64,000 bases of DNA. It comes from Thiomonas delicata. Lineage in GTDB: Bacteria > Pseudomonadota > Gammaproteobacteria > Burkholderiales > Burkholderiaceae_C. Made by a program: the position numbers and the translations under genes. Of the stretch, positions 1,785 through 16,265 are shown one piece after another. Where the stretch lies: assembly GCF_900088825.1 (NCBI RefSeq), contig NZ_LT592170.1, forward strand, positions 792,590 through 856,589, read 5' to 3'. Below the pieces are notes generated by a model, which did no database searches, was not told the DNA's origin, and saw nothing but the letters and a program-made list of their open reading frames with translations. Position 1 is the first letter of the stretch, and each line of letters opens with the position of its first letter.

Positions 1785-3617
1785 ATGCACATACGGATCA
1801 TGCAAAGAAAAATCTTCCTCAAGGCGCTGGGGCTTGTGCCCATGGCGTTGCCGCTGGCGGAGTTGGCCGGCTGTGTCAGCGCCCCAAAGCGCCCACAGAG
1901 TCCGGCACGCGGCGACCATGAGGCGGCACGCGCTTACATCACCGCGTTGATCCGCTATGAAATGGTCAAGCATCGGGTCGCAGGGCTCAGCATTGCCTTG
2001 GTGGATGATCAGCGCATCGTCTGGGCGCAAGGCTTTGGCTATGCGGATCTGAAGCGCAAGATTCCCGCATCGGAAACAACGCTTTATCGGGTGGGCTCGA
2101 TCAGCAAGCTCTTTACCGCCATGGCGGCGATGCAACTCAGCGAAAGCGGAAAACTCGACATAGGCGCCCCCCTCTTGGCCTGCTTGCCAGGATTCGAGAT
2201 GAAGACGCGTCAGCCGCATGTCAGACCTATCACGCCTCGCCAGCTGATGACCCATCACGCGGGGCTGCCGCGAGATCGCCTGAAAGGTTTCATGCACCCA
2301 CATCCCCAGCCCTTTGCGGATCTCGTGAAGGACCTCAGGCATGAGCATGTGGCTTACCCGCCAGACGAGATTTTTGCCTACTCCAACCTGGGGATTTCAT
2401 TGCTCGGTGCGGCAATTCAGAACATTGCGGGTGCGCCTTTTGCAGACCACATGCGTCGCGAAATGCTGAACCCCTTGGAGATGCGCGATTCAGCGTTTGA
2501 AACGGGATATTCAAACGCGGCTTCGATGGCCAAGGGTTATCTTGGATGCAAGGCTATCGTGGAGTATCCCTTGCGTGATGTCCCCGCTGGAGGGCTCAAC
2601 TCCAATGTCGTGGATATGAGCCGCTTCATATCGATGGTTTTTGCAGGGGGCGCGTCCGGCGGCGGCTGTGTGTTGCAGGCTCAGACCATGGCCGAGATGC
2701 TGCGTCCGCAAAATGAGCACGTTCCGCTGGATCTCGATTTCCGCATCGGCCTGGGTTGGTTTCTCGGCTCCACCCATCCCGCTCTTCGGCACGTGGGGCA
2801 GGTCGCGGGACATGGTGGTGCCACACGCTTGCACCGAAGCCAGTTGTACGTCCTGCCCGAGCACAAACTCGGGGTCGTCGTTTTGGCCAATACCAGTACG
2901 GCAACGCCTGTCGTGGACCGGGTTGCCGCCGAAGCGCTGGCCCTGGCGCTCGAGGTGAAGACGGGCATCCGTCCGCAGCAACTGGCCAAGCCCCCTATGG
3001 CTGAAACCCCAATTTCCGCGGATGACATGCGCACGTATGCGGGCAGCTACACCACCCTTGCTGGCCTCGTGACGATCACTTCAACAGGAAAGGGGTTGTG
3101 TGCGCACGTTGCAGGACGCAGGTTTGATGTGAAGCGCCGTGCTGACGGCACGTTCGCTCTTGCGTATTCGCTGCTTGGCATCATTCCGCTTCATCTCAAG
3201 CAACTTGCGGATGTCGGTTTTTCCCGGAAAACCCTGCAGGGGCGGGACATCCTGGTTGCGCATATTGGCGCGATACAACTGCTTGCCGGCCAAAGGCTAG
3301 GACCCACCGAGAACGATACGGGGTGGGAACGCTTACTCGGCGAATACGATGTCGCCAATCTTGATGGCGACTTCAGCATGTTTTCTGATGTTCGCGCTGT
3401 GGGTGAACACGGTTTTCTGCTGGTCGAAATGAAGTCGATGATGGGATCCAAACAGACGTACCGAGTGCCTCTGCTGCCGGTTTCTGAGCATGATGCGATT
3501 GCCCAGGCGAACCTCGCTGGCATGGGGGAAACGGTGCGGTGCGTGACGTTCGATGGAGTTCAAGGGCTTGCATTTTCCGGCTACTACTTCAAGCCCAAAT
3601 CGTCGTCAACAACGTGA
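1785..3617 (+). CDS. Class C beta-lactamase-like serine hydrolase lipoprotein
   Basis: 610 residues. An N-terminal lipobox (LAGC) follows a hydrophobic signal, so the enzyme is probably anchored in the periplasm. Serine beta-lactamase/penicillin-binding-fold motifs are present in order: SISK (SxxK nucleophile motif) in VGSISKLF, YSN (YxN) in FAYSNLG, and HGG (KTG equivalent) in AGHGGATR. After the ~390-residue catalytic domain comes a ~200-residue C-terminal beta-rich extension, as in many beta-lactamase-related esterases or peptidases. An in-frame ATG at 1800 is an alternative start that gives a cleaner signal peptide. The substrate cannot be predicted; such proteins are more often esterases or D-amino-peptidases than true beta-lactamases. 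Codon use looks less GC-biased than in the downstream operon. Confidence 0.85.
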   Translation: MHIRIMQRKIFLKALGLVPMALPLAELAGCVSAPKRPQSPARGDHEAARAYITALIRYEMVKHRVAGLSIALVDDQRIVWAQGFGYADLKRKIPASETTLYRVGSISKLFTAMAAMQLSESGKLDIGAPLLACLPGFEMKTRQPHVRPITPRQLMTHHAGLPRDRLKGFMHPHPQPFADLVKDLRHEHVAYPPDEIFAYSNLGISLLGAAIQNIAGAPFADHMRREMLNPLEMRDSAFETGYSNAASMAKGYLGCKAIVEYPLRDVPAGGLNSNVVDMSRFISMVFAGGASGGGCVLQAQTMAEMLRPQNEHVPLDLDFRIGLGWFLGSTHPALRHVGQVAGHGGATRLHRSQLYVLPEHKLGVVVLANTSTATPVVDRVAAEALALALEVKTGIRPQQLAKPPMAETPISADDMRTYAGSYTTLAGLVTITSTGKGLCAHVAGRRFDVKRRADGTFALAYSLLGIIPLHLKQLADVGFSRKTLQGRDILVAHIGAIQLLAGQRLGPTENDTGWERLLGEYDVANLDGDFSMFSDVRAVGEHGFLLVEMKSMMGSKQTYRVPLLPVSEHDAIAQANLAGMGETVRCVTFDGVQGLAFSGYYFKPKSSSTT

Positions 3618-4373: not shown

Positions 4374-5783
4374 TCAGCGTGCGCTGCCGCCCAGCTCGAT
4401 ACGCCGCAGCACGAGGTAGACGATGGCGGCGACCACCACGCCAAGTTCGAAGCCGATGTCCATGCCGTAGGGCGGGTTGAACAGTCCGGCGACGGGACCG
4501 ACGAACATGGTCTGCGCCGCACCCAGGTAGACGCCGAACAGGCCGGCAGCCATGGCGATGGCGGCGGCCCAGCCCACGGGGAGCTTGCTGCGGGTGTTCC
4601 AGTCGTCCACGTTGTAGCGACCGCGCCGGAACACGGCGTGCTCGAGGATGAGGATGATGGCCCACGGCCCCAGCCAGTAGGCAACCAGCAGCAGGAAGTT
4701 CTCCAGCGTGGCGTTGAAGTGCGCGGCCGCGGGAATGGCAATGGCGATGTAAACAATGGCGCCGATGAGGGTCCACACCGCGCGGTTGATCTTCTGGAAG
4801 CCCTTGCCCAGAACCTGCATCGACAGGCCCAGGCTGTAGTCGTTGGGGATGTTGTTGGCAATGACCGACAGCGCCAGCAGCAGGAGCAGCATCTTGCCCG
4901 CGCCGCCCAGCGGTTGCAGCACCGCGGCGAGCAGCGCGCCGCCGCCGTCGGCGCTGGCCTTGCCGAAGGCCGTCACCGTGGTCAGGCCCAGGCCCAGGGT
5001 TTCCAGCAGCACGCAGGGCACGACTACGCCGAGGAAGGTGAGCCAGAACACGCGCGAGGGCGCCGTGTCCTCGGGCTGGTTCACGTTGTAGTCCGCGGCG
5101 TAGGAGCTCCAGCCGGTGGCGAAGCCGAAGATGGCGCCGCCGAAGGACACCAGCGCGGCCACGTGGGCCATGGTCCACACCGGGGTGGGCAGGGCGTGCA
5201 TCTGGCCGCCGGCGGCGAACAGCACGATGAGGAAGATGGCCGCCATGGGCATCCAGGCGAAGCGCTCGTAGCGGTGCACGTAGCGGTAGCCGTAGATGCT
5301 GACCACGGTGGTGAGCGCCGCGATGATGAGAATGGCGGCCCAGGTGGGCACGGCGCCGCCGCTGATGGCGGTGATGATCTGCGCGCCGACGATGACGTTC
5401 ACCGCCGACCAGCCGATGCACGCGGCGACGTTGAACAGCGCCATGACCTTGGCGCCGTTCCAGCCGAAGGAAAAGCGCGAGATGGTCATCTGCCGCAGGC
5501 CGAGTTTGGGGCCTAGCGTGGAGAAGAACGCCACCGGCAGCACGCCCAGGATGTTGAAGGCGACGATGACACCCAGGCTGTCCCAGAAGCCCAGGCCGAA
5601 CACGGGGATGGCCAGGGCGCCGAGCGCCACGGTGGAGATAACCAGGTTGGCCGACAGCCACATGGTGAAGTTGTCGACAATGCGCACGTGGCTACGGTCG
5701 TGCGGCGGCACGCGTTCGATGCCACGGGTTTCGATGCCGGGATCGAGCGCGGGCATCGTGGGGTTTGCTGCGGGGCTGCTCAT
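4374..5783 (-). CDS. codB: NCS1-family cytosine/purine permease (CodB-like)
   Basis: 469 residues, the usual size for the NCS1 nucleobase:cation symporters, with about 12 hydrophobic segments. N-terminal features include a charged lead-in before MWLSANLVISTVALGALAIP; later GFATGWSSYAADYNVNQP and IANNIPNDYSLGLSMQ fit the cytosine-permease subgroup. It is the last gene of the minus-strand pyrimidine operon, 105 bases after codA, with its own ribosome binding site (ACGGAG). It most likely imports cytosine for the deaminase encoded just upstream; related substrates such as uracil or hydantoins are possible. Confidence 0.9.
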   Translation of the reverse strand: MSSPAANPTMPALDPGIETRGIERVPPHDRSHVRIVDNFTMWLSANLVISTVALGALAIPVFGLGFWDSLGVIVAFNILGVLPVAFFSTLGPKLGLRQMTISRFSFGWNGAKVMALFNVAACIGWSAVNVIVGAQIITAISGGAVPTWAAILIIAALTTVVSIYGYRYVHRYERFAWMPMAAIFLIVLFAAGGQMHALPTPVWTMAHVAALVSFGGAIFGFATGWSSYAADYNVNQPEDTAPSRVFWLTFLGVVVPCVLLETLGLGLTTVTAFGKASADGGGALLAAVLQPLGGAGKMLLLLLALSVIANNIPNDYSLGLSMQVLGKGFQKINRAVWTLIGAIVYIAIAIPAAAHFNATLENFLLLVAYWLGPWAIILILEHAVFRRGRYNVDDWNTRSKLPVGWAAAIAMAAGLFGVYLGAAQTMFVGPVAGLFNPPYGMDIGFELGVVVAAIVYLVLRRIELGGSAR

Positions 5784-5888
5784 GGGTGTTGCTCCGTGTC
5801 AGGAAGTGGCCGGTCTTGGATGCCGGAGTTGAAGGATCGTATACAAAACCCGAGCAAAATCCATTCCCGATTCACCCTGCCCGACGCA

Positions 5889-7193
5889 TCATTTCGGTGC
5901 TTGACCGGAGCTGCCTTGCGAGGGCCGCGTGAAGTCCACGGTCTGCGGCCGCCCGGGCAGCCGCAGCGTGGTGGTCGCGGGCGCGGCGCTGGCGATGACC
6001 TTGCCGGCGCGGATCACGGCCAGGCGGCTGGCCCGCAGGCGGATGGCCTCGACCGGGTCGGCCGCCTGCAGCAGCACGAGATCGGCGCGGCAGCCGGGCT
6101 CCAGGCCGTAGCCGTCCAAGCCGAGGATGCGCGCCGGGGTGGTGGTGACGGCTTCGAAGCATTGCCGCATCGCGTCCCGGCCGGTCATCTGCGCCACGTG
6201 CAGGCCCATGTGCGCGACTTCCAGCATGTCGCCCGAGCCCAGGCCGTACCAGGGGTCCATCACGCAGTCGTGGCCGAAGGCCACCGGCACGCCCGCGGCC
6301 AGCAGCTCGGGCACGCGGGTCATGCCGCGGCGCTTGGGGTAGGTGTCGTGCCGGCCCTGCAGGGTGATGTTGATCAGCGGGTTGGCGATGGCTGCCACGC
6401 CGGACTCGCGCAGCAGCGGCAGCAGCTTGCTGACGTAATAGTTTTCCATGCTGTGCATGGAGGTGAGATGCGAGCCGGTGACGCGCCCCTGCAGCCCCAG
6501 GCGCTGCGCCTGCGCGGCCAGGGTCTCGATGTGGCGCGACAGCGGGTCGTCGCTTTCGTCGCAGTGCATGTCCACCATCAGCCCGCGCTGGGCGGCGATG
6601 GCGCACAGCATGCGCACCGACTCGGCACCCTGCTCCGCGGTGCGCTCGAAGTGCGGGATGCCGCCGACCACGTCCACCCCGAGGTCGAGCGCGCGCTCGA
6701 GGTTGGCCAGCGCGCGCGGCGCCCGCAGCAGGCCGTCCTGCGGGAAGGCGACGAGCTGCAGGTCCAGGTAGGGCTTGACCCGCTCGCGCACGTGCAGCAG
6801 CGCCTCCACCGCCAGTAGGCGGTCGTCGCACACGTCCACGTGGGAGCGGATCGCCAGCAGGCCCTTGGCCACCGCCCAGTCGCAATACGCCAGCGCGCGC
6901 TCGACCAGGGCCTCCTGCGTCAGTTGCGGCTTGAGCTCGCCCCACAGCGCGATGCCCTCCAGCAGCGTGCCGCTCTGGTTCACGCGCGGCAGGCCGTGGC
7001 TGAGCGTGGAGTCCATGTGGAAATGCGCGTCGACGAAGGGCGGGGTGACGAGCTGGCCGGCGCAATCGATTTCGTGTCCGGCCTGCGCCGGCAGATGCGT
7101 TTGCAGCGCGGCGATGCGGCCATGCGCGATGCCGATGTCGATCCCGGCCCGACCGTCGGGCAAGGTGGCGTTGCGAAGAATGAGGTCCAGCAT
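5889..7193 (-). CDS. codA: Cytosine deaminase
   Basis: 434 residues, close to E. coli CodA (about 427) and colinear with it as far as I can recall. Amidohydrolase metal ligands are visible: HFH in PPFVDAHFHMD, the barrel His in HVDVCDD, the catalytic Glu in MHCDESDD and the metal Asp in FGHDCVMD. Family-specific blocks NQSGTLLEGI and LQGRHDTYPKRRGMTRV are retained. The ATG at 7193 is chosen because AAGGA precedes it and the preceding frame belongs to unrelated upstream sequence. It converts cytosine to uracil plus ammonia in the cytoplasm, feeding Upp and the URC-like proteins of the same operon. Confidence 0.95.
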   Translation of the reverse strand: MLDLILRNATLPDGRAGIDIGIAHGRIAALQTHLPAQAGHEIDCAGQLVTPPFVDAHFHMDSTLSHGLPRVNQSGTLLEGIALWGELKPQLTQEALVERALAYCDWAVAKGLLAIRSHVDVCDDRLLAVEALLHVRERVKPYLDLQLVAFPQDGLLRAPRALANLERALDLGVDVVGGIPHFERTAEQGAESVRMLCAIAAQRGLMVDMHCDESDDPLSRHIETLAAQAQRLGLQGRVTGSHLTSMHSMENYYVSKLLPLLRESGVAAIANPLINITLQGRHDTYPKRRGMTRVPELLAAGVPVAFGHDCVMDPWYGLGSGDMLEVAHMGLHVAQMTGRDAMRQCFEAVTTTPARILGLDGYGLEPGCRADLVLLQAADPVEAIRLRASRLAVIRAGKVIASAAPATTTLRLPGRPQTVDFTRPSQGSSGQAPK

Positions 7194-7240
7194 CGTGCGT
7201 TCCTTCGGGGTTGTTGCCGTCGCTTGGTCGGGGCGTGCTT

Positions 7241-7975
7241 TCAGCCCCGCCTGGAGGTTTTGCGCCCTTCCCGCAAGCGAGGCGCGGGGTGGGCAGCGGT
7301 GTCCGCGGCCGGTGCCGGCGCGGGTTGATCGCCCAGCCCGCAGCCGCGCAGCACGAGACCGACCACATGCTCGGTGGCGCGTTGCCAGGGCGCGCCGCGC
7401 AGGCTGCGCGCGCCCAGCACGGCGCGCACCTGGGGGGCGAAGTCGGCATAGGTCTGGGTCGCGGCCCAGATGGTGAAAAACAGGTGCGGCGGGTCGACCG
7501 GCGCCATGCGCCCCTGCGCGATCCAGCCCTCGATCACGGCCGACTTGCGCGCCACCAGCTCGCGCAGTTCGCCGCGAAGAATGTCCTGCATCTCGGGGGC
7601 GCCGCGCAGCATCTCGCCGGCGAACACGCGCGAGGCCTCGGGCCGGGTCTGCGCCAGCGCCATCTTGGCGCGCACGTAGGCGCCCAGCGCCTGCGCCGGG
7701 TCGGCATCGGCGCGAATGCCGTCGGTCTCGGCCAGCCAGTCGCGCAGCATGCGCTCCAGCACCGCGCGGTAGAGCTGCTGCTTGGTGCGGAAGTAGTAGT
7801 GGATATTCGCCTTGGCCACTCCGGCCTGCGCGGCGATCTCGGCCATGCTGGCGCCGCGAAAACCGTCGCGCGCGAACACGGCCTCGGCCGCGCGCACGAT
7901 GGCGGCTTCGTTGGCTTGGCGGATGCGTCCCGCGGCCGGCGCAGGCGCAGCGGTCGGCGCCGGCGCGGCGGCCAT
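7241..7975 (-). CDS. rutR: RutR-like TetR-family pyrimidine regulator
   Basis: 244 residues. The N-terminal TetR helix-turn-helix (about residues 25-70) contains IAAQAGVAKANIHYYF. The C-terminal domain carries the RutR-type signature FTIWAATQTYADFAPQVRAV with DPPHL before it, very close to E. coli RutR, whose ligands are uracil and thymine. A 35-residue Ala/Arg-rich tail is extra. Its ATG shares a base with the upp stop codon (TGATG), so translation is coupled to upp. A palindrome identical to the core of the known RutR site lies upstream of the first operon gene (11220-11235), which implies autoregulation. The ligand is inferred, not shown. Confidence 0.88.
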   Translation of the reverse strand: MAAAPAPTAAPAPAAGRIRQANEAAIVRAAEAVFARDGFRGASMAEIAAQAGVAKANIHYYFRTKQQLYRAVLERMLRDWLAETDGIRADADPAQALGAYVRAKMALAQTRPEASRVFAGEMLRGAPEMQDILRGELRELVARKSAVIEGWIAQGRMAPVDPPHLFFTIWAATQTYADFAPQVRAVLGARSLRGAPWQRATEHVVGLVLRGCGLGDQPAPAPAADTAAHPAPRLREGRKTSRRG

Positions 7976-8610
7976 CACTTGGTCCCGAAAATCCGGTCGC
8001 CGGCATCGCCCAGGCCGGGGACGATGTAGCCGTGCTCGTTGAGGCGCTCGTCGACGGCGGCCAGCGTGACCGGAACGTCCGGGTGGGCCGCGCGCACCGT
8101 GCGCAGGCCCTCGGGCGCGGCCAGCAGGTTGACGAGCTTGAGGGCGCTGGCGCCGGCGTCCTTCAGGCGCGTGAGGGCGGCGGCGGCCGAATTGCCGGTG
8201 GCGAGCATGGGGTCGACGACGATGACCAGGCGCTCGGACATGTCGTCGGGCACCTTGAAGTAGTACTCCACCGGCTCCAGCGTGTCGGGGTCGCGGTACA
8301 GGCCGATGTGGCCGACGCGGGCGTTGGGCAGCAGATCGATCATGCCGTCGAGCATGCCGTTGCCGGCGCGCAGGATGGACACCAGGCACAGCTTCTTGCC
8401 GCTGAGCAGCGGCATGCGGCAGGCGGCGACCGGGGTGACGATCTCCACCTCCTCGGTGGGCAGGTCGCGCGTGGCCTCGTAGGCCAGCATCGCGGCGATC
8501 TCGCGCACCAGGCGGCGGAAATTGTCGGTGGTGGTGTCCTTGCTGCGCGCCAGCGTCAGCTTGTGCTGCACCAGCGGGTGGCTGACGACATGGACCATGG
8601 GATCGTGCAT
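7975..8610 (-). CDS. upp: Uracil phosphoribosyltransferase
   Basis: 211 residues, the normal size. The PRPP-binding loop [15 protein letters not shown] and the C-terminal uracil-binding [13 protein letters not shown] are intact. It converts uracil and PRPP to UMP. A ribosome binding site (GGAGA) precedes the ATG at 8610. In the URC pathway described in the yeast Lachancea kluyveri, the homologous enzyme (URC6) performs the entry step. Here the gene lies between a DUF1688 gene and a RutR-like regulator, so a dual salvage/catabolic role is likely. Confidence 0.97.
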
Positions 8611-8670
8611 CTGGGTTCTCCGTTCATGTTGTGTGTTGTGGTGGGCGTGCCGGGCGCGTGGCCTGGGGCG

Positions 8671-9951
8671 TCAAAACACCGTGCCGTCGCTGACGATGCA
8701 CAGCGGCGGCCCGCCGTCGGCGCGGCGCTCGGCGGCGATGCGGCGGCCGGCGAACCAGGCGCCGCCCTCGATCACCTGCGTCAGCGGAAATTGCGCCGCG
8801 CTCACGCCCAGTCGTGCGCGCACGGCGTCGGCCAGGTCGTCGAGCAGCGCGACGGTGAGGGCGCGCCACTCCACCACCGGCTCGCTGTCGACGGCGAGGG
8901 GCTTGCTCGCCAGCGCGGCGTCGCGCGGCTGCAGCAGGCCGAGGTCGAGCAGCAGGCCGCCGTTGCGGTATTCGGGCAGGCCGGTGAGGGCGTCGAGTTC
9001 GCGCACCTGCAGGCCGCCCCATTGCAGCGGCTCGATCAGCGAATAGCTCATCCACTGCGTCAGTTTGTGGAAGGGCATATAGCCGTCGCTCGTGGCGGGG
9101 TGGTGCCAGCAGTCACCCAGGTTCACGCCGGCCAGCGTCAGCCGGCCCGGCCACACCGGGCCGAGCAGGCGCAGCAGGGAGGACAGCATGGTGTCGGCGC
9201 GCACGCTCATGCCTTTCCCCTCGCCCTGCGCCGCGGCGTGGGCGAGCCAGTGGTCGAACAAGCGCCCCAGGCGCAGACTTCCGGGGCGCTCGGGGTCGGC
9301 GAACACGGCGGGCGCGGCGCGCATGGCTTCGCCCAGATTGCGCAGCAGTTGGGCGCGGCCTTCCAGGCCCACCAAGGGGTTGTCGGGCCCAACCTGGAAG
9401 GCCTGTGCCAACGCGGCGGCGTCGCTGCGTCGCAGCGCGGCGGCGTCGCAGCGCAGGGGTTGGGCCGGATCGTCCGACAGCCGGCCGCTGGCGAACAGCG
9501 CCAGGCTGGCCACGCCCAGCCCTTCGGAGCGCGCCAGGGTCTGGCCGCTGCCGGCGTCGGCGTAGCGCCACTGCGGGCCGGCGCCGGCGTCGAGCAGCAC
9601 GCTGGGGACCACGAGGTCGATGGCGATGCGGGCACGCTCCTGTGGCGTGGCGTGCAGCGGGCCGAGCAGGCTTGCGAAGCGGTCGACGCCGCCGCTCTCG
9701 AAATGGCGCCAGCGGCTGTGCATGGGCACGCGCAAATCGGGGTGGCGGCTGCGGATGGTGTCGACCACATAGTCGGCCGTGGCGTCCATGCGTTCCGGAT
9801 GCCAGGTGAAATGCGCCAGTTCGCCGCGCCGCGCATGGGCCATGATTTGCGCCGCGTGGCTGCGCACGGCGCCGGCGCTCAGCAGGTTTTCGGCGCGCGC
9901 GGCGGGGGATCGTGCGAGAGAGGATGCGCCGGTCTGGACTGGGCCGCTCAT
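8671..9951 (-). CDS. DUF1688 family protein (URC4/Urg3-like)
   Basis: 426 residues, typical of the DUF1688 family, for which yeast URC4 and fission yeast Urg3 are the named members. Recognisable blocks are the N-terminal RAENLLSAGAVR, then WRHFESGGVDRF, DLVVPSVLLDAGAGPQWRY, SDGYMPFHKLTQWMSYSLIE and the C-terminal DGTVF. The biochemical activity of the family is not established; genetics in yeast place it in uracil catabolism together with a RibA-like protein. The start overlaps the upstream RibA-like gene by four bases (ATGA), and upp follows 60 bases later. This gives a URC1-URC4-URC6 gene order. No signal peptide, so cytoplasmic. Confidence 0.88.
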   Translation of the reverse strand: MSGPVQTGASSLARSPAARAENLLSAGAVRSHAAQIMAHARRGELAHFTWHPERMDATADYVVDTIRSRHPDLRVPMHSRWRHFESGGVDRFASLLGPLHATPQERARIAIDLVVPSVLLDAGAGPQWRYADAGSGQTLARSEGLGVASLALFASGRLSDDPAQPLRCDAAALRRSDAAALAQAFQVGPDNPLVGLEGRAQLLRNLGEAMRAAPAVFADPERPGSLRLGRLFDHWLAHAAAQGEGKGMSVRADTMLSSLLRLLGPVWPGRLTLAGVNLGDCWHHPATSDGYMPFHKLTQWMSYSLIEPLQWGGLQVRELDALTGLPEYRNGGLLLDLGLLQPRDAALASKPLAVDSEPVVEWRALTVALLDDLADAVRARLGVSAAQFPLTQVIEGGAWFAGRRIAAERRADGGPPLCIVSDGTVF

Positions 9952-11201
9952 TCTTCCAGCCCCCGGCCCTTCGGCAGCGCCAGCTCCTCTTCACTCGGCG
10001 TGTCGTGCGAGAAGTAGCCGGCGGCCTTCTTCGCGTCCATCTCCACGCGCGCATCGGACGGAATCAGATCGTCGGGAATGGCCACCTGCTCGACGACCTC
10101 GATGCCGGCCTGGGTCAACGCGCCGAGTTTCATATGGCTCATCGACGCCCAGCGGTCGATGCGGGTGATGCCCAGCCAATGGAACACGTCGGGCATCAGT
10201 TCCTGGAAGCGCATGTCCTGCACGCCGGCGACGCATTCGGTGCGCTCGAAATAGGTCTCGGCGCGGTCGCCGCCGGCCTGGCGCTTGCGCGCGTTGTAGA
10301 CCAGGAACTTGGTGACCTCGCCCAGCGCGCGGCCTTCCTTGCGGTTGTAGACCACCAGGCCGACGCCGCCTTGCTGCGCCATCTCGATGCAGACCTCGAT
10401 GCCGTGCGCCAGATAGGGCCGGCAGGTGCAGATGTCGGAGCCGAACACGTCGGAGCCGTTGCATTCGTCGTGCACGCGGCAGGCCACGCGGGTCTCGGGG
10501 CGGCCGAGCTGGGCGACGTCGCCGAAGAAGTACAGGGTCATGCCGCCGATGGGGGGCAGGAACACCTTCAGGTCGGGCCGCGTCACCAGCTCGGGGAACA
10601 TGCCGCCGGTCTGCTCGAACAGGGCGCGGCGCAGCGCCGCCTCGCGCACCTTGAAGCGCGCGGCAATGCCCGGCAGCCACCACACCGGGTCGATGGCGGC
10701 CTTGGTCACGCGCACGTCGCCGTTGGCATGCAGGATGGCGCCATCGGGCGTGAGCCGGCCCTTGACGATGGCGTCTTTCAGCTCGGGCATGTTGATATGC
10801 GCGCGGGTGACGGCGATGGTCGGGCGCAGGTCGAGGCCGGCGGCAATCTGCGCGGCGAACACCTCGGGCACCAGATGGCCCCAGGGGTCGAGCGAAACGA
10901 TGTTGCCGGGCTCGGCCCACTGCGGATGCGGGCCGATGCCGGCGGCCGGCGCGGTGTCGGTGAAATCGGGCCGGTGGTCGCGGTCCAGCGCGCCCGAGGC
11001 CACGGCCAGCGCACGGTACAACGCATAGGCCCCCGCATGCGTGCCGATGGCGTTGCGCCGGCGCGGATCGGTCAGCGTGGCCACCACCGGACCGCGCTCG
11101 GCGGCCGTGGCCGCGCCCCAGCGGATCTCCGGCGCATGCACGCTGCCGCCCGTGCCGGGGTGCGACGAGAGGACGACATGGCTGAAGGGCGGGCTGGACA
11201 T
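9948..11201 (-). CDS. GTP cyclohydrolase II-like protein (URC1-like)
   Basis: 417 residues. The C-terminal half resembles RibA: a zinc-site-like block CRVHDECNGSDVFGSDICTC, followed by YNRKEGRALGEVTKF and a C-terminal GxxxxxW region. The first ~190 residues are an extra domain absent from riboflavin RibA but present in the URC1 subgroup. It is the first gene of the operon, with GGAG nine bases before the ATG and a RutR-type operator just upstream. Because its neighbours are DUF1688 and upp, a role in opening the pyrimidine ring in uracil catabolism is more likely than riboflavin synthesis. The exact reaction is inferred from yeast genetics. Confidence 0.87.
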   Translation of the reverse strand: MSSPPFSHVVLSSHPGTGGSVHAPEIRWGAATAAERGPVVATLTDPRRRNAIGTHAGAYALYRALAVASGALDRDHRPDFTDTAPAAGIGPHPQWAEPGNIVSLDPWGHLVPEVFAAQIAAGLDLRPTIAVTRAHINMPELKDAIVKGRLTPDGAILHANGDVRVTKAAIDPVWWLPGIAARFKVREAALRRALFEQTGGMFPELVTRPDLKVFLPPIGGMTLYFFGDVAQLGRPETRVACRVHDECNGSDVFGSDICTCRPYLAHGIEVCIEMAQQGGVGLVVYNRKEGRALGEVTKFLVYNARKRQAGGDRAETYFERTECVAGVQDMRFQELMPDVFHWLGITRIDRWASMSHMKLGALTQAGIEVVEQVAIPDDLIPSDARVEMDAKKAAGYFSHDTPSEEELALPKGRGLEE

Positions 11202-11219: not shown

Positions 11220-11235
11220 CTGACCAATTGGTCAG
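11220..11235. promoter_or_regulatory. RutR-type operator
   Basis: CTGACCAATTGGTCAG is a perfect 16-base palindrome. Its core TGACCA-NN-TGGTCA equals the RutR consensus known from E. coli (TTGACCANNTGGTCAA) except at the outermost bases. It begins 18 bases upstream of the URC1-like start codon, on the same side as the likely promoter, and the operon encodes a RutR-like protein. Binding would be expected to repress the operon until uracil or a similar ligand is present. Confidence 0.8.
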
Positions 11236-11494: not shown

Positions 11495-11518
11495 TTTTTG
11501 ACAATCCAACGTCAAAAA
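11495..11518. promoter_or_regulatory. Inverted repeat at the transporter promoter, possible operator
   Basis: TTTTTGAC, an 8-base spacer and GTCAAAAA form a perfect 8+8 inverted repeat just downstream of the putative -10. The inner TTGAC/GTCAA half sites are the same as in the RutR consensus but 2 bases further apart, so it may bind a different regulator. The position would let a bound protein block transcription start. Confidence 0.4.
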
Positions 11519-11563
11519 ATCCGTGCCCACCGATCCCATGACGGGCGCAACCAGGAGACTCAC

Positions 11564-12808
11564 ATGAAGCACAACATCCGCAAGGCGCTGAAGGCTTTGG
11601 CCGCAGGCGCCACATTCACCGCGGCCGCCGCCGCGGCACAGGCAGCCGGTGCGCCGGCGGTCATCAAGATCGGCACGCTGTACGCCAGCAGCGGCGCGTT
11701 CGCCGTCGCCTCGCAGGGTCAGTACGAAGGCCTGCAGTTCTGGGCCAACGCCGTCAACAAGGACGGCGGCCTGTTCGTCAAGGCCTACGGCAAGAAGATT
11801 CCGGTGAAGATCGTCGCCTACGACGACCAGAGTTCCACCTCCACCGCCACCTCGCTCTACAACCAGCTCATCACCCAGGACAAGGTGGACGTCCTCGTGG
11901 CCGACTTTGGCTCGGTGCTGACCTCGGTGGCCGTGCCGCTGGCGGCCGAGCACCACATGCTGCTGATCGACCCCACCGGCTCGGGCGCCAACTTCTTCAC
12001 CAAGAAGACCGACTACCTCGCCGACGTGAGCATCCCGTCGTCCCAGGTGTGGCCGGTGCCGCTGGGCAAGTTCCTGCTGGCGCAGAAGATCAAGCGCGTG
12101 GCCATTCTGTACGACGCCAACGACTTTGACGCCTCCCAGGCCACGACGCTCAAGGACGTGCTGGCCAAGGGCGGCGTGACGCCGGTGTACTACCACGGCG
12201 TTCCCACCTCCGAGTCCAACTACACCATCCTGCTGCACACCATGGCGGCCAGCCATCCCGAGGCCGTGATCGAGCTGGGCTATCCGCCCAACGACATCGC
12301 CTTCCTGCGCTCGCTGTCGCAAAGCGGGCTGCATTTCGACATGACGTTCACCATCTTCCCCGGCCAGCTGCTGACGCTGCTGACGAAGAACGTGGGCGCC
12401 AAGGCGCTGGCCTACACCTACACCTATCCGACGCCGCCGCTGGTGAAGTACGACAAGGTCACCTACGGCATGAACACCGCCGAATTCGTGCAGGCCTACA
12501 ACGCCGCCACGCACAAGGAGCCCAACTTCCTGAACGCCGCGGGCTACAACACCGGCATCGTCATGCAGGACATGCTCGGCACCGCGCCGAAGTTCACGCA
12601 GCTGGACTTCCATCAGGCGCTGATGGACATGTCGGGCAAGACCACGACCCTGCTCGGCCCCTTCGAGATCAACGCCAACGGCGCGCAGCTCGGCCAGCCC
12701 TTCCCGGTCGCGCAGCTGGTGCCCGAGGGCGACGGCTCCAAGGTTGTGGTGGTCTATCCGCAGGACAAGGCCACCGGCAAACCGGTGTACCCGGCGCCGC
12801 ATTCCTGA
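11564..12808 (+). CDS. Periplasmic binding protein of a HAAT-type ABC importer
   Basis: 414 residues with a Sec signal peptide (MKHNIRKALKALAAG then an Ala-rich core ending near QAAGA). The mature protein is a type I periplasmic binding fold of the Peripla_BP_6 family: IKIGTLYASSGAFA at the N-terminus, IKRVAILYDANDF opening the second lobe. AGGAG precedes the ATG at 11564. It heads an operon with two permeases and two ATPases. The ligand is not deducible from sequence; the position divergent from a pyrimidine-degradation operon suggests a pyrimidine, urea or related compound rather than an amino acid. Confidence 0.88.
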   Translation: MKHNIRKALKALAAGATFTAAAAAAQAAGAPAVIKIGTLYASSGAFAVASQGQYEGLQFWANAVNKDGGLFVKAYGKKIPVKIVAYDDQSSTSTATSLYNQLITQDKVDVLVADFGSVLTSVAVPLAAEHHMLLIDPTGSGANFFTKKTDYLADVSIPSSQVWPVPLGKFLLAQKIKRVAILYDANDFDASQATTLKDVLAKGGVTPVYYHGVPTSESNYTILLHTMAASHPEAVIELGYPPNDIAFLRSLSQSGLHFDMTFTIFPGQLLTLLTKNVGAKALAYTYTYPTPPLVKYDKVTYGMNTAEFVQAYNAATHKEPNFLNAAGYNTGIVMQDMLGTAPKFTQLDFHQALMDMSGKTTTLLGPFEINANGAQLGQPFPVAQLVPEGDGSKVVVVYPQDKATGKPVYPAPHS

Positions 12809-12897
12809 TGCGTGGATGACCCGGGCGGCGCGCCCGCCCGGGTTTGCAAGCGCCACGCGGTGATCCCGCGGTGTCAGCGCAAGGTTGGGGAGAACCC

Positions 12898-13779
12898 GTG
12901 GAATTGCTTGAGTACGCCATCATTGGCGGGATTTTGTATGGCATCTTTTTCAGCCTGGTCGGGATCGGGCTGAATCTGATTTTCGGCGTCATGCGCATCA
13001 TCAACCTCGCGCATGGCCAGTTCATCGTGCTCGGCGGCTATGCCGCGTTTCTCGTCTCGCAGCACTTCGGCCTCAACCCGCTGTGGGGCATCGCGCTGTC
13101 CGTGGTCGGCGCCATCGTCGTCGGCTGGCCGCTGTATGCCGCGGTGGTGCCGCGCCTGCAGCGCAGCGGCGACCCGGAGATGCTGTCCTTCATCCTGTTC
13201 TTCGGCATCGGCCAGATGCTGGAGGCGCTGACCGTGCTCGGCTTCGGCGCCGACCAGCGCTCGCTGCCGGGCGACGCCTTGGGCAGCGGCAATCTCGGCC
13301 TGCTCGGGCAGGAGTTCCCCGACAGCTGGTGGGTGGCGGCGGCGGTGAGCCTGGCGGCCATCGCCGGGCTGTACGTCTATTTCTCGCACACCAAGCTGGG
13401 CTACGCCACGCGCGCCATCATGGCCAACCGCGACGAGGCCCTGGCCACCGGCATCGACGTGCGCCGGGTGTCGGCCATCGCCTTCGTCGCCGGGCTGGCG
13501 CTGGCCGGCATCGCCGGCGTGTTCGTGCCCTATCTGCTGGGCTCGGTCTCGCCCGATCTCGGCGACGGGCTTACCACCACCTCGTTCGCCATCGTCATCA
13601 TCGGCTCGCTGGGCAACCCGCTGGGCACCGTCATCGGCGGCCTGGTGTTCGGTCTCGGCACCATGCTGATGCAAACCTACTACTCATCCTGGTCCAACGT
13701 CGTGCCCTATGCGCTGCTGCTCGTCATCGTGCTGATCCGCCCCTCCGGTCTGCTCGGAAAGGCGGTGCGCCTTGCGTGA
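12898..13779 (+). CDS. HAAT-family permease, LivH-like
   Basis: 293 residues, about eight membrane segments. The N-terminal block FGVMRIINLAHGQFIVLGGY is the hallmark of LivH/UrtB permeases; a later IIGSLGNPLGTVIGGLVFG block is also typical. The GTG at 12898 is chosen because GGGGAG lies just upstream and the longer reading would add 18 soluble residues. Its end overlaps the next permease by eight bases, so the pair is translationally coupled. Confidence 0.88.
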   Translation: MELLEYAIIGGILYGIFFSLVGIGLNLIFGVMRIINLAHGQFIVLGGYAAFLVSQHFGLNPLWGIALSVVGAIVVGWPLYAAVVPRLQRSGDPEMLSFILFFGIGQMLEALTVLGFGADQRSLPGDALGSGNLGLLGQEFPDSWWVAAAVSLAAIAGLYVYFSHTKLGYATRAIMANRDEALATGIDVRRVSAIAFVAGLALAGIAGVFVPYLLGSVSPDLGDGLTTTSFAIVIIGSLGNPLGTVIGGLVFGLGTMLMQTYYSSWSNVVPYALLLVIVLIRPSGLLGKAVRLA

Positions 13780-14707
13780 CGCCACCTTCATGCGCTGGGC
13801 GCGGCCCGGCGCCATCGTGCTGGCGCTGCTCGCCGGCGCCTTCGCCCTGCTGCCGCATGTCTACGGCAACCAGTCCCTGCTGTTCACGCTGATGACCTTC
13901 ATCGTGCTGGCCCAGGGCTTGAATCTGCTGTACGGCTTTACCGGCTACCTGCCGTTCGGCTACGTCGGCTTTTTCGGCTGCGGGGCGTATGCCACCTCGC
14001 TGCTGGTGCTGCACACCCACCTTCCGGTGCTGGCCTGCGTGGCGGGCGGAGGGCTGGCTGCCGTGTCGATGGCGTTGGTTCTCGGCCCCTTGCTGCGGCT
14101 GTCGGGCGCCTACTTTTCCATCGCCAGCCTGGCGGCGTCGCAGATCCTGTACTTCGTCGTGTCCAACACCAATCTGGCCGACATCACCGGCGGGCCCTAT
14201 GGCCTGAAGATCGAGCAGGTGTACGCCCCCAACGCCAGCTATTTCTCGATGCTGGCCGTGCTGCTGCTGGCCACGGCGCTGGCGGCCTACTTCCGCGCCT
14301 CGCGCTTCGGCATGGCGCTGCGGGCGATGAAGCAGGATGCGCTGAGCGCCTCGATGGCCGGCATCGACATCGTGCGCGCGCGCCTGATCACCTGGCTGGT
14401 CTCGGCCGCCATCGCCGGGCTGGCCGGCGGGGTTTACGCCTGGAACCTCTCGGTGTTCTACCCGGACGCCGTGTTCACCTTGCAGATCTCGGTGTTCGCC
14501 ATCGTCTTCTCCCTGTTCGGCGGCGTGGGCACGGTGGTCGGGCCCATTGTCGGCGCGGCCGTGCTGTACACGCTGTACTCGGCCATCGGCATTTCCACGC
14601 CGCAGTACTTCCAGCTGGTCTACGGGCTGCTGATCGTGCTGCTGGTGCTGTTCCTGCCCGGAGGCATTTTGTCCTTGTTCAGCCGCAGGGGGATCCGTGT
14701 CTTCTGA
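13772..14707 (+). CDS. HAAT-family permease, LivM-like
   Basis: 311 residues, eight to ten membrane segments. The block LAQGLNLLYGFTGYLPFGYV and the later FSLFGGVGTVVGPIVGAAV match LivM/UrtC permeases. A TTG start at 13772 overlaps the LivH-like stop and is preceded by GGAAAGG; an ATG at 13790 is the alternative. The end overlaps the ATPase gene by 11 bases. It should pair with the LivH-like protein to form the inner-membrane channel. Confidence 0.87.
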   Translation: MRDATFMRWARPGAIVLALLAGAFALLPHVYGNQSLLFTLMTFIVLAQGLNLLYGFTGYLPFGYVGFFGCGAYATSLLVLHTHLPVLACVAGGGLAAVSMALVLGPLLRLSGAYFSIASLAASQILYFVVSNTNLADITGGPYGLKIEQVYAPNASYFSMLAVLLLATALAAYFRASRFGMALRAMKQDALSASMAGIDIVRARLITWLVSAAIAGLAGGVYAWNLSVFYPDAVFTLQISVFAIVFSLFGGVGTVVGPIVGAAVLYTLYSAIGISTPQYFQLVYGLLIVLLVLFLPGGILSLFSRRGIRVF

Positions 14708-15404
14708 ACCTCTGCTGCGCCTGGAAGGCGTGTACAAGCGTTTCGGCGGCCACGCCGTGCTCAACGACGTGAGCTTCGCCGTGGGGCCCGGCGAGATCGT
14801 CGGCCTGGTCGGCCCGAACGGTTCGGGCAAGACCACCACCATCAATGTCATTTCCGGGGTCCACCGCGCCGATGCCGGCGCCGTCGTGTTCGACGGCCGG
14901 CCGGTGCACAAACTGCCCACGTTCCGGTTGGCGCGCCTGGGCATCAACCGCACCTTCCAGGTGCCCAAGGTGTTCCGCGACATGACGGTGCGCGAGAACA
15001 TCGAAGTCGCCGCGCACTTCGGCCGCGCGCATGACGCCGACGTGGGCGCCATCCTGGCCGACATCGACCTCGCCGCGCAGGCCGACCAGCTGGCCGGCTC
15101 GCTCACGGTGAACCAGCAGAAGCTGCTGGACCTCGGCCGGGCGCTGGCCACCGGCCCGAAGCTGCTGCTGGTGGACGAGATCGGCGCCGGCTTGAATCCG
15201 GCCGAGCTCGGCGGCATCGCCACGCTGCTGCAGAAGCTGGCGGCGCGCGGCATCGCCCTCATCGTGGTCGAGCACCTGCTGGACTTTCTCAACCGCATCA
15301 CGGCGCGCGTCATCGTGCTCGGCGCCGGTCGCATGCTGTTCGAGGGTCCGCTGGACGCCGCCTCGCGCGACCCCGAGGTCGTCGCGGCCTTCATCGGAGG
15401 TTGA
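14697..15404 (+). CDS. HAAT ABC transporter ATPase, LivG-like
   Basis: 235 residues. Walker A GPNGSGKTT and Walker B LLLVDEIGAGLNP are clear, and INRTFQVPKVF is the Q-loop region. The ABC signature reads LTVNQQ where most LivG proteins have LSYGQQ, so the central Gly is Asn; the residue after the Walker B Glu is Ile rather than Pro. Other LivG branches also vary here, so this may be a subfamily trait. The GTG start at 14697 overlaps the LivM-like gene. It would energise import together with the LivF-like ATPase. Confidence 0.88.
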   Translation: MSSEPLLRLEGVYKRFGGHAVLNDVSFAVGPGEIVGLVGPNGSGKTTTINVISGVHRADAGAVVFDGRPVHKLPTFRLARLGINRTFQVPKVFRDMTVRENIEVAAHFGRAHDADVGAILADIDLAAQADQLAGSLTVNQQKLLDLGRALATGPKLLLVDEIGAGLNPAELGGIATLLQKLAARGIALIVVEHLLDFLNRITARVIVLGAGRMLFEGPLDAASRDPEVVAAFIGG

Positions 15405-15408
15405 GGCC

Positions 15409-15563
15409 ATGAAGCCCACTGCACGGCCGCCCGAAAGTGGGCGAATTCCCTCCGGGAGGGAACGCGCGCAGCGCGAGGGAGCACAGATGATCTCACTGCA
15501 CGGCCGCCCGAAAGTGGGCGAATTCCCTCCCGGAGGGAACGCGCGCAGCGCGAAGGAACACCC
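15409..15563 (+). repeat. Tandem ~77-bp duplication between the two ATPase genes
   Basis: Two copies of a unit start at ATGA, at 15409 and 15487, and a third ATGA at 15564 is the LivF-like start (spacings 78 and 77). From 15417-15484 and 15494-15561 the copies agree at all but about three of 68 positions. Each contains the inverted pair TTCCCTCC/GGAGGGAA and the palindromic GCGCGCAGCGCG, and ends in a purine-rich GAGGGA or GAAGGA that sits at ribosome-binding distance from the next ATG. A 52-codon frame runs from 15409 through both copies and ends at 15567, overlapping the LivF-like start (ATGA). The frame is probably not a conserved protein but could couple translation. Confidence 0.85.
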
Positions 15564-16265
15564 ATGAGCCTGCTTTCCCTGCAAGGCGTCGAGTCCGGCT
15601 ACGGACCGATGCAGATTCTCTGGGGCATCGACCTCGATGTCGCCGCCGGCGAAACCGTGCTGCTGCTGGGCGCCAACAGCGCCGGCAAGACCACCCTGTT
15701 GCGCACCATCATCGGCCTGCTGCCGTGCTGGCGCGGCGGCATCCGCTTCGATGGCGAGCGCATCGACACGCTGGCGCCCGATCAGCGCATCCGCCGCGGC
15801 ATCGCCTTCATGTCCGAACTCGGCGTGTTTCCCACCTTGTCGATCGACGAGAACATCGCGCTCGGCGGCTATTTCCTGCGCGACGCCGAGGTGCGGCGCC
15901 GCCGCGAGCGCCTGTTCGAGCTGTTCCCCGATCTGGCCGCGAAGCGGCGCGACGCCGCCGGCTCGCTTTCGGGCGGGCAGCGCAAGATGCTGGGCATCGC
16001 CAAGGTGCTGGTGTCCGAGCCCAGGTTGTTGCTGATGGACGAGCCTTCGTCGGGACTGGCGCCGGTGTTCGTCAAACAGGTGATCGAGGTGCTCAAGACC
16101 TCCATCGGCAGCGGCACATCGTTGCTGATCGCGGAGCAGAACGTCGCCTTCCTGGCGCTGGCCGACCGGGGTTACCTGATCGACCACGGCAAGGTCAGGC
16201 TCTCGGGCACGCGGACCGAACTGGAGTCGAGCGACGCGGTGCGCGAAGCCTACTTCGGGCTTTGA
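15564..16265 (+). CDS. HAAT ABC transporter ATPase, LivF-like
   Basis: 233 residues, the normal LivF size. Walker A is GANSAGKTT, the signature LSGGQRKML and Walker B LLLMDEPSSGLAP, with the H-loop position occupied by EQN as in other LivF proteins. Its ribosome binding site (GAAGGA) is supplied by the end of the second upstream repeat copy. It is the last gene of the importer operon and is convergent with the AsmA-like gene. Confidence 0.9.
   Translation: MSLLSLQGVESGYGPMQILWGIDLDVAAGETVLLLGANSAGKTTLLRTIIGLLPCWRGGIRFDGERIDTLAPDQRIRRGIAFMSELGVFPTLSIDENIALGGYFLRDAEVRRRRERLFELFPDLAAKRRDAAGSLSGGQRKMLGIAKVLVSEPRLLLMDEPSSGLAPVFVKQVIEVLKTSIGSGTSLLIAEQNVAFLALADRGYLIDHGKVRLSGTRTELESSDAVREAYFGL

Follow-up and report, generated by a model that had tools for sequence, protein, structure and literature searches.

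A candidate uracil-responsive URC operon in Thiomonas delicata and a predicted Qng1-like fold for its DUF1688 protein

We analysed a stretch of 64,000 nt from Thiomonas delicata (the window), which is part of a 3.84-Mb genome in 54 contigs, and describe here a cluster of six open reading frames (ORFs), all on the minus strand, that runs from position 11201 down to 4374 and has the place and strand given in the initial annotation. The leading gene (9948..11201) encodes a 417-aa URC1-type cyclohydrolase, a homologue of the uridine triphosphate (UTP) cyclohydrolase of PDB entries 7eev and 7ej3, and is followed by a gene (8671..9951) for a 426-aa DUF1688 protein of the URC4/urg3 family, a predicted Qng1-like N-ribosyl hydrolase. 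Behind these lie upp, for a uracil phosphoribosyltransferase in the URC6 role (7975..8610), a gene for a RutR-like TetR (TetR/YcdC-type) regulator (7241..7975), codA, for cytosine deaminase (5889..7193), and a gene for an NCS1-family permease (4374..5783). The URC1 and DUF1688 genes overlap in ATGA, and upp and the regulator gene in TGATG, while the other intergenic gaps are 60 bases (DUF1688 to upp), 47 bases (regulator to codA) and 105 bases (codA to permease). A palindrome, CTGACCAATTGGTCAG, occupies 11220..11235, assigned to neither strand, 18 bases ahead of the start codon of URC1, and is a candidate RutR-type box, judged against a RutR consensus that we take to be TTGACCANNTGGTCAA.

All six genes and both overlaps had been listed in the initial annotation, and domain and NCBIfam scores agree with them. 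The URC1 protein contains a GTP_CH_N domain (Pfam, E 9.7e-82) and a GTP_cyclohydro2 domain, and scores 764 bits against NCBIfam model NF005536 (cut-off 403). The DUF1688 protein reaches 468 bits with its Pfam model (cut-off 25), Upp 276 bits with TIGR01091 (cut-off 208), and CodA passes the curated cut-off of PRK07572 (816 versus 438 bits). For the permease, the earlier name of cytosine permease proves too specific: it scores 22.8 bits against the CodB model PRK11017 (cut-off 326) and 215 bits against the general NCS1 model TIGR00800, itself under the cut-off of 353, and these scores together with the domain match permit the general label of NCS1 carrier at most.

The URC1, DUF1688 and Upp homologues stand together both in the window and in its relatives. 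In a sample of 299 genomes from one phylum, DUF1688 (PF07958) and GTP_CH_N (PF12471) are each found in 18, and these are the same 18 genomes, with the two domains separated by 683-885 bases in every one; the search for co-occurrence that had been proposed therefore finds the RibA-like and DUF1688 genes adjacent in 18/18. A further 80 related loci were retrieved by their DUF1688 match, and because several of their contigs stop early, the gene counts among them are lower bounds: at least 76 carry a URC1 homologue, at least 76 Upp, at least 25 CodA, at least 20 a RutR-like regulator and at least one an NCS1 permease. The closest DUF1688 relative in this set, from a Burkholderiales metagenome-assembled genome, is 89% identical across residues 122-426. 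A link of URC1/URC4 with upp in bacteria was reportedly made in work of 2008. Within the genus, a match to the RibA model at the URC1 span is present in just two of 13 genomes, that of the window included, so the operon seems to be accessory there. As a separate observation on these 13 genomes, the cut-off of the canonical RibA model (TIGR00505) is reached in none, the window's own included, and only partial, low-scoring matches occur; one such partial match lies in the window's own genome at G000:C4:1661144-1661596.

The yeast URC loci are reported to be essential for uracil degradation and URC4 is assigned the conversion of ribosylurea into urea (PMC7530994), the yeast URC/urg families include DUF1688 (PMC2174524), URC1 and URC4 are reported alongside the yeast work as conserved in many bacteria (PMC3869809), and ribosyl-urea degrading enzymes are mentioned (PMC8709784). 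The initial annotation had presented URC1 as known from yeast genetics; the yeast URC work bears this out, but URC1 is no longer a matter of genetics only, as UTP cyclohydrolase entries exist in the PDB. A profile built from 45 URC1 sequences, that of the window plus those from 44 of the 76 loci with URC1, matches 7ej3 and 7eev at E 1e-224, and the predicted structure of the window protein, with a predicted local distance difference test score (pLDDT) of 81.8, matches 7eev/7ej3 over nearly the full chain (68% identity, E 1.3e-52). Both entries are titled ‘UTP cyclohydrolase’, and PMC12507026, in its treatment of the URC pathway, cites a structural and biochemical study of this enzyme from 2021. 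Beyond these entries, the only matches of the model at E ≤0.001 are two chains of E. coli GTP cyclohydrolase II (2bz0) and a single chain of Mycobacterium tuberculosis (Mtb) RibA2. Positions C54, C65 and C67 of E. coli RibA, presumably the zinc ligands, and D126 and R128, presumably the catalytic pair, correspond to residues that are invariant in all 45 URC1 sequences, and the window protein scores 48.9 bits against canonical RibA (TIGR00505), below the cut-off of 205.85. By sequence, then, URC1 is a close full-length homologue of a characterised UTP cyclohydrolase, and ring opening of UTP is presumed by homology.

The DUF1688 protein had been described as lacking an assigned biochemical function, and within the databases and papers searched this description holds: Pfam names it as a family whose function is unknown, none of the NCBIfam models matches it at E 0.001, and a sequence search against PDB chains returns no related chain (two alpha-mannosidase rows, E 0.26). 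Its predicted structure (pLDDT 93, predicted template modelling (TM) score 0.90) points to kinship with a known enzyme, in that DUF1688 is predicted to share the fold of Qng1/DUF2419. In a Foldseek search of 350,542 PDB chains, all eleven matches at E ≤0.001 are Qng1/DUF2419 chains (E 1e-8 to 9e-7, probability 1.00, TM 0.66-0.73 by target length, 13-18% identity), and the next match has an E value of 0.4. In individual Pfam scans of the 56 sequences of the DUF1688 alignment (the window and 55 of the 80 loci), with E values of up to 10 admitted, nine sequences match PF10343 (Q_salvage) weakly (best E 6.8e-4), and other families, DUF1688 itself excepted, match at most two members each. Alignment by hhalign of the DUF1688 profile with nine bacterial Qng1 relatives gives a probability of 94%, a score of 61.6 and an E value of 9e-8; the controls score 28.5 (best of 200 column shuffles), 19.7 (reversed profile) and 18.0 (URC1 as an unrelated profile). 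The Qng1 relatives were drawn from ten of 296 genomes of the phylum of a Rhodococcus genome, the nine above the cut-off being used and one below it (L108) dropped. The Qng1 family has no match in one Rhodococcus genome. A set of 249 genomes from the phylum of the window gives none either, but the control genomes are equally silent and the absence is thus not shown.

The residues known to matter in Qng1 have candidate counterparts in DUF1688. For the Sphaerobacter enzyme, PDB entries 7u5a and 7ulc carry the substitutions K199C and D231N, PMC11592518 names D298 and W302 as active-site residues, and all four positions agree with the numbering of a Qng1 chain in the PDB. In the profile alignment, K296 and E327 of the window protein line up with K199 and D231, respectively; like W399, they are invariant in 56/56 DUF1688 sequences. 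Qng1 frees queuine from queuosine 5'-monophosphate, according to the same paper (PMC11592518), and the titles of its PDB entries agree (queuosine-5'-monophosphate hydrolase); an enzyme that accepts a 5'-monophosphate would suit a route beginning with uridine 5'-monophosphate (UMP). Among the open-licence papers searched, we found none that links DUF1688, URC4 or urg3 with Qng1 or queuosine.

Aligned with E. coli RutR, the regulator has 87 identical residues across a span of 195. PMC10891134 gives W77, Y97, W167, Q171 and Q179 as the uracil-contact residues of RutR and a palindrome of about 16 bases as its site, and all five residues are identical in the window regulator. The exact sequence TGACCANNTGGTCA occurs once in the genome, at the site before URC1, and the window contains one match with at most one mismatch (shuffles average 0.09). 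Across the related loci, a box with one mismatch or none lies ahead of URC1 in 18 of the 19 scored loci that have the regulator (14 of them exact) and in none of the 57 that do not, one of which has a two-mismatch match; scrambled half-sites (199 draws, including repeats) reach at most one of the 19. This count leaves out L019, where the regulator is present and the contig stops before URC1, and three regulator-free loci. By title, 17 of the 19 belong to groups that we take to be betaproteobacterial, and two are titled Proteobacteria only. With up to three mismatches allowed, no box is found at ten regulator-free loci that we assign to the betaproteobacteria, eight of them from their titles and two (L042 and L046) from the identity of their URC1.

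The analysis thus supports the gene content and linkage of the operon, the association of regulator and box, and the similarity of DUF1688 to Qng1 in predicted fold and mapped residues. The locus is best read, as first proposed, as a URC-type operon that brings its own regulator and cytosine feeder; its core families occur in the same 18/299 genomes. More fully, we read it, with a probability of about 0.72, as a uracil-responsive URC operon in which a Qng1-like DUF1688 protein hydrolyses ribosylurea 5'-phosphate. Uracil would enter directly or arise from cytosine through CodA, and Upp would join it to phosphoribosyl pyrophosphate (PRPP) to give UMP. After phosphorylation to UTP, URC1 would open the pyrimidine ring in a reaction analogous to that of GTP cyclohydrolase II, and with loss of the three-carbon part the probable product would be urea still bound to ribose 5-phosphate. 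DUF1688 would then hydrolyse the N-ribosyl bond of this putative ribosylurea 5'-phosphate, splitting it into ribose 5-phosphate and urea, from which ammonia would be freed by urease or urea carboxylase. The RutR-like protein would occupy the palindrome before URC1 and leave it on binding uracil, which would induce the operon. The genome encodes urease alpha (182 bits) and urea carboxylase (1876 bits against a cut-off of 1304), so urea should be usable by the organism. The Rut pathway was also considered and set aside, since RutA pyrimidine monooxygenase has no match in this genome at E 0.001.

Several observations weigh against this reading, and most concern either the regulator or DUF1688. 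The earlier label RutR-like stands as far as the five uracil contacts are concerned, but the regulator scores only 209 bits against the RutR equivalog TIGR03613, under its cut-off of 368. In the whole genome, ten sites lie within one mismatch of the box, versus six for a backward control, which leaves the exact site as the only distinctive one; one regulator locus (L020) has a two-mismatch box only; and as the regulator loci are mostly betaproteobacterial, shared descent inflates the count of 18/19. For DUF1688, the window's own protein has no PF10343 match up to E 10, and one of the 56 members matches the unrelated DUF6412 with an E value (4.2e-4) that narrowly beats the best for Q_salvage, so the best E value alone proves little and it is the recurrence in nine members that counts. 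D298 and W302 are paired with E395 and W399 by a low-confidence extension of the alignment, position 395 is Glu in 51/56 sequences and Gln in 5/56, and all four mapped residues (K296, E327, E395 and W399) are placed by alignment rather than by coordinates in one pocket. In addition, D231 and D298 of Qng1 both become Glu in DUF1688, each one carbon longer, although a longer acid would plausibly suit a smaller leaving group such as urea.

The last of these points bears on what we regard as the chief alternative, an unlikely one that still merits some weight, in which the URC assignment is right and DUF1688 uses the fold shared with Qng1 for another role, for example on the ring-opened ribosyl-ureidoacrylate or a dephosphorylated nucleoside. 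The low identity to Qng1, the change from Asp to Glu at two mapped positions and the extra 100 or so residues (426 versus 315-344 aa) would all suit a different substrate, whereas the invariance of the mapped Lys and Glu is expected if the hydrolase chemistry is kept, and the placement of URC4 at ribosylurea in the yeast literature agrees with the proposed step. It is considerably less probable that the cluster serves pyrimidine salvage or pool control, from cytosine to UMP, with URC genes that do not support growth on uracil here. CodA, the NCS1 carrier and Upp would suffice for such a route, and the cluster is patchy within the genus, as described above; yet URC1, DUF1688 and Upp occur together without CodA (compare the counts for Upp and CodA in the 80 loci), the genome has urea-using enzymes, and the essential role reported for the yeast URC loci, cited earlier, speaks for degradation.

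Least probable of all is a role for the RibA-like protein as GTP cyclohydrolase II in riboflavin synthesis, and we rejected this candidate. Its RibA domain homology, the retention of the C54, C65, C67, D126 and R128 positions and the fact that no other match in the genome exceeds the RibA cut-off would all be expected of such an enzyme, but its own score lies far under that cut-off, and the nearest structures are titled UTP cyclohydrolase. Furthermore, 11 of the 12 other genomes of the genus have neither a match at the URC1 span nor a RibA match over the cut-off, and the genus is therefore not reliant on URC1 for riboflavin. The uracil-responsive URC operon remains the preferred interpretation, and its pathway is already known: the URC genetics in yeast and the UTP cyclohydrolase are published elsewhere, and the window is a new bacterial instance of them. 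The DUF1688 prediction and the RutR-type switch go further. Only slightly less confidently than the operon itself, we consider it likely that DUF1688 is a ribosylurea-5'-phosphate N-ribohydrolase, representing a pyrimidine-catabolic branch of the Qng1 superfamily and the missing URC enzyme in bacteria and fungi, and that in one bacterial group the URC operon has come under the control of a RutR-type uracil switch, a device familiar from the Rut pathway, which is unrelated.

Around the operon, a divergent plus-strand LIV-type ATP-binding cassette (ABC) transporter (11498-16265; a binding protein, two permeases and two ATPases) adjoins URC1. Its identification as a urea transporter was rejected because scores fall below the cut-offs (UrtA, 41 versus 493 bits), and by tblastn its binding protein is found in none of the 80 related loci and each permease in one, so a link with URC is not general. 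In 13 of the 80 loci (L028-L033, L035, L037, L040, L063, L071, L074 and L077), a Bmp-type (PF02608) binding protein, an ABC ATPase and two permeases lie near the URC genes and are likely a different feeder; the Bmp-type protein has no match in the window. Clustering of neighbours by longest ORFs was muddled by shadow frames, and a codon-position score was used instead, read for 14 of the 80 loci. On the other side of the cluster, a plus-strand ORF (1785-3617, 610 aa) resembles, as judged by eye, a serine beta-lactamase/esterase-type lipoprotein. The two 2-kb bins within 6001-10000 have a G+C content of 0.72, compared with 0.59-0.70 across the remaining bins of positions 1-30000.

URC4 has a yeast phenotype, and no enzyme chemistry is assigned to it in the literature searched; the predicted fold, the candidate residues and the candidate substrate make DUF1688 directly testable, and for such work the regulator with its box would provide an uncomplicated, inducible system in bacteria. 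If the proposal is correct, the urea-releasing step would be filled in for one of the four named uracil breakdown routes, and Qng1, so far regarded as a micronutrient-salvage enzyme, would gain a catabolic relative.

In comparison with known systems, the operon shares its cyclohydrolase-like, DUF1688 and uracil phosphoribosyltransferase families with the URC pathway of Lachancea kluyveri (URC1, URC4 and URC6) and with urg1-urg3 of Schizosaccharomyces pombe, and differs from both in its compact operon form and in the addition of CodA, a RutR-like regulator and an NCS1 carrier, with the genes for urease and urea carboxylase sited elsewhere in the genome. From the sequence comparison, URC1 resembles the UTP cyclohydrolase of 7eev and 7ej3 over almost its whole length, and no functional difference is seen. 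It shares with GTP cyclohydrolase II (RibA) the C-terminal domain and the metal and catalytic positions, and is distinguished from it by the extra N-terminal GTP_CH_N domain and the much lower RibA score. The regulator resembles RutR in its five uracil contacts and its palindrome, which here precedes a URC operon rather than rutA-G. DUF1688, finally, is similar to Qng1/DUF2419 in its predicted fold, in a weak sequence similarity and in the tentatively mapped Lys, two acids and Trp, and departs from it in its 13-18% identity, in having Glu for two Asp, in its greater length, in the position of the window protein outside PF10343, and in its setting among pyrimidine genes.

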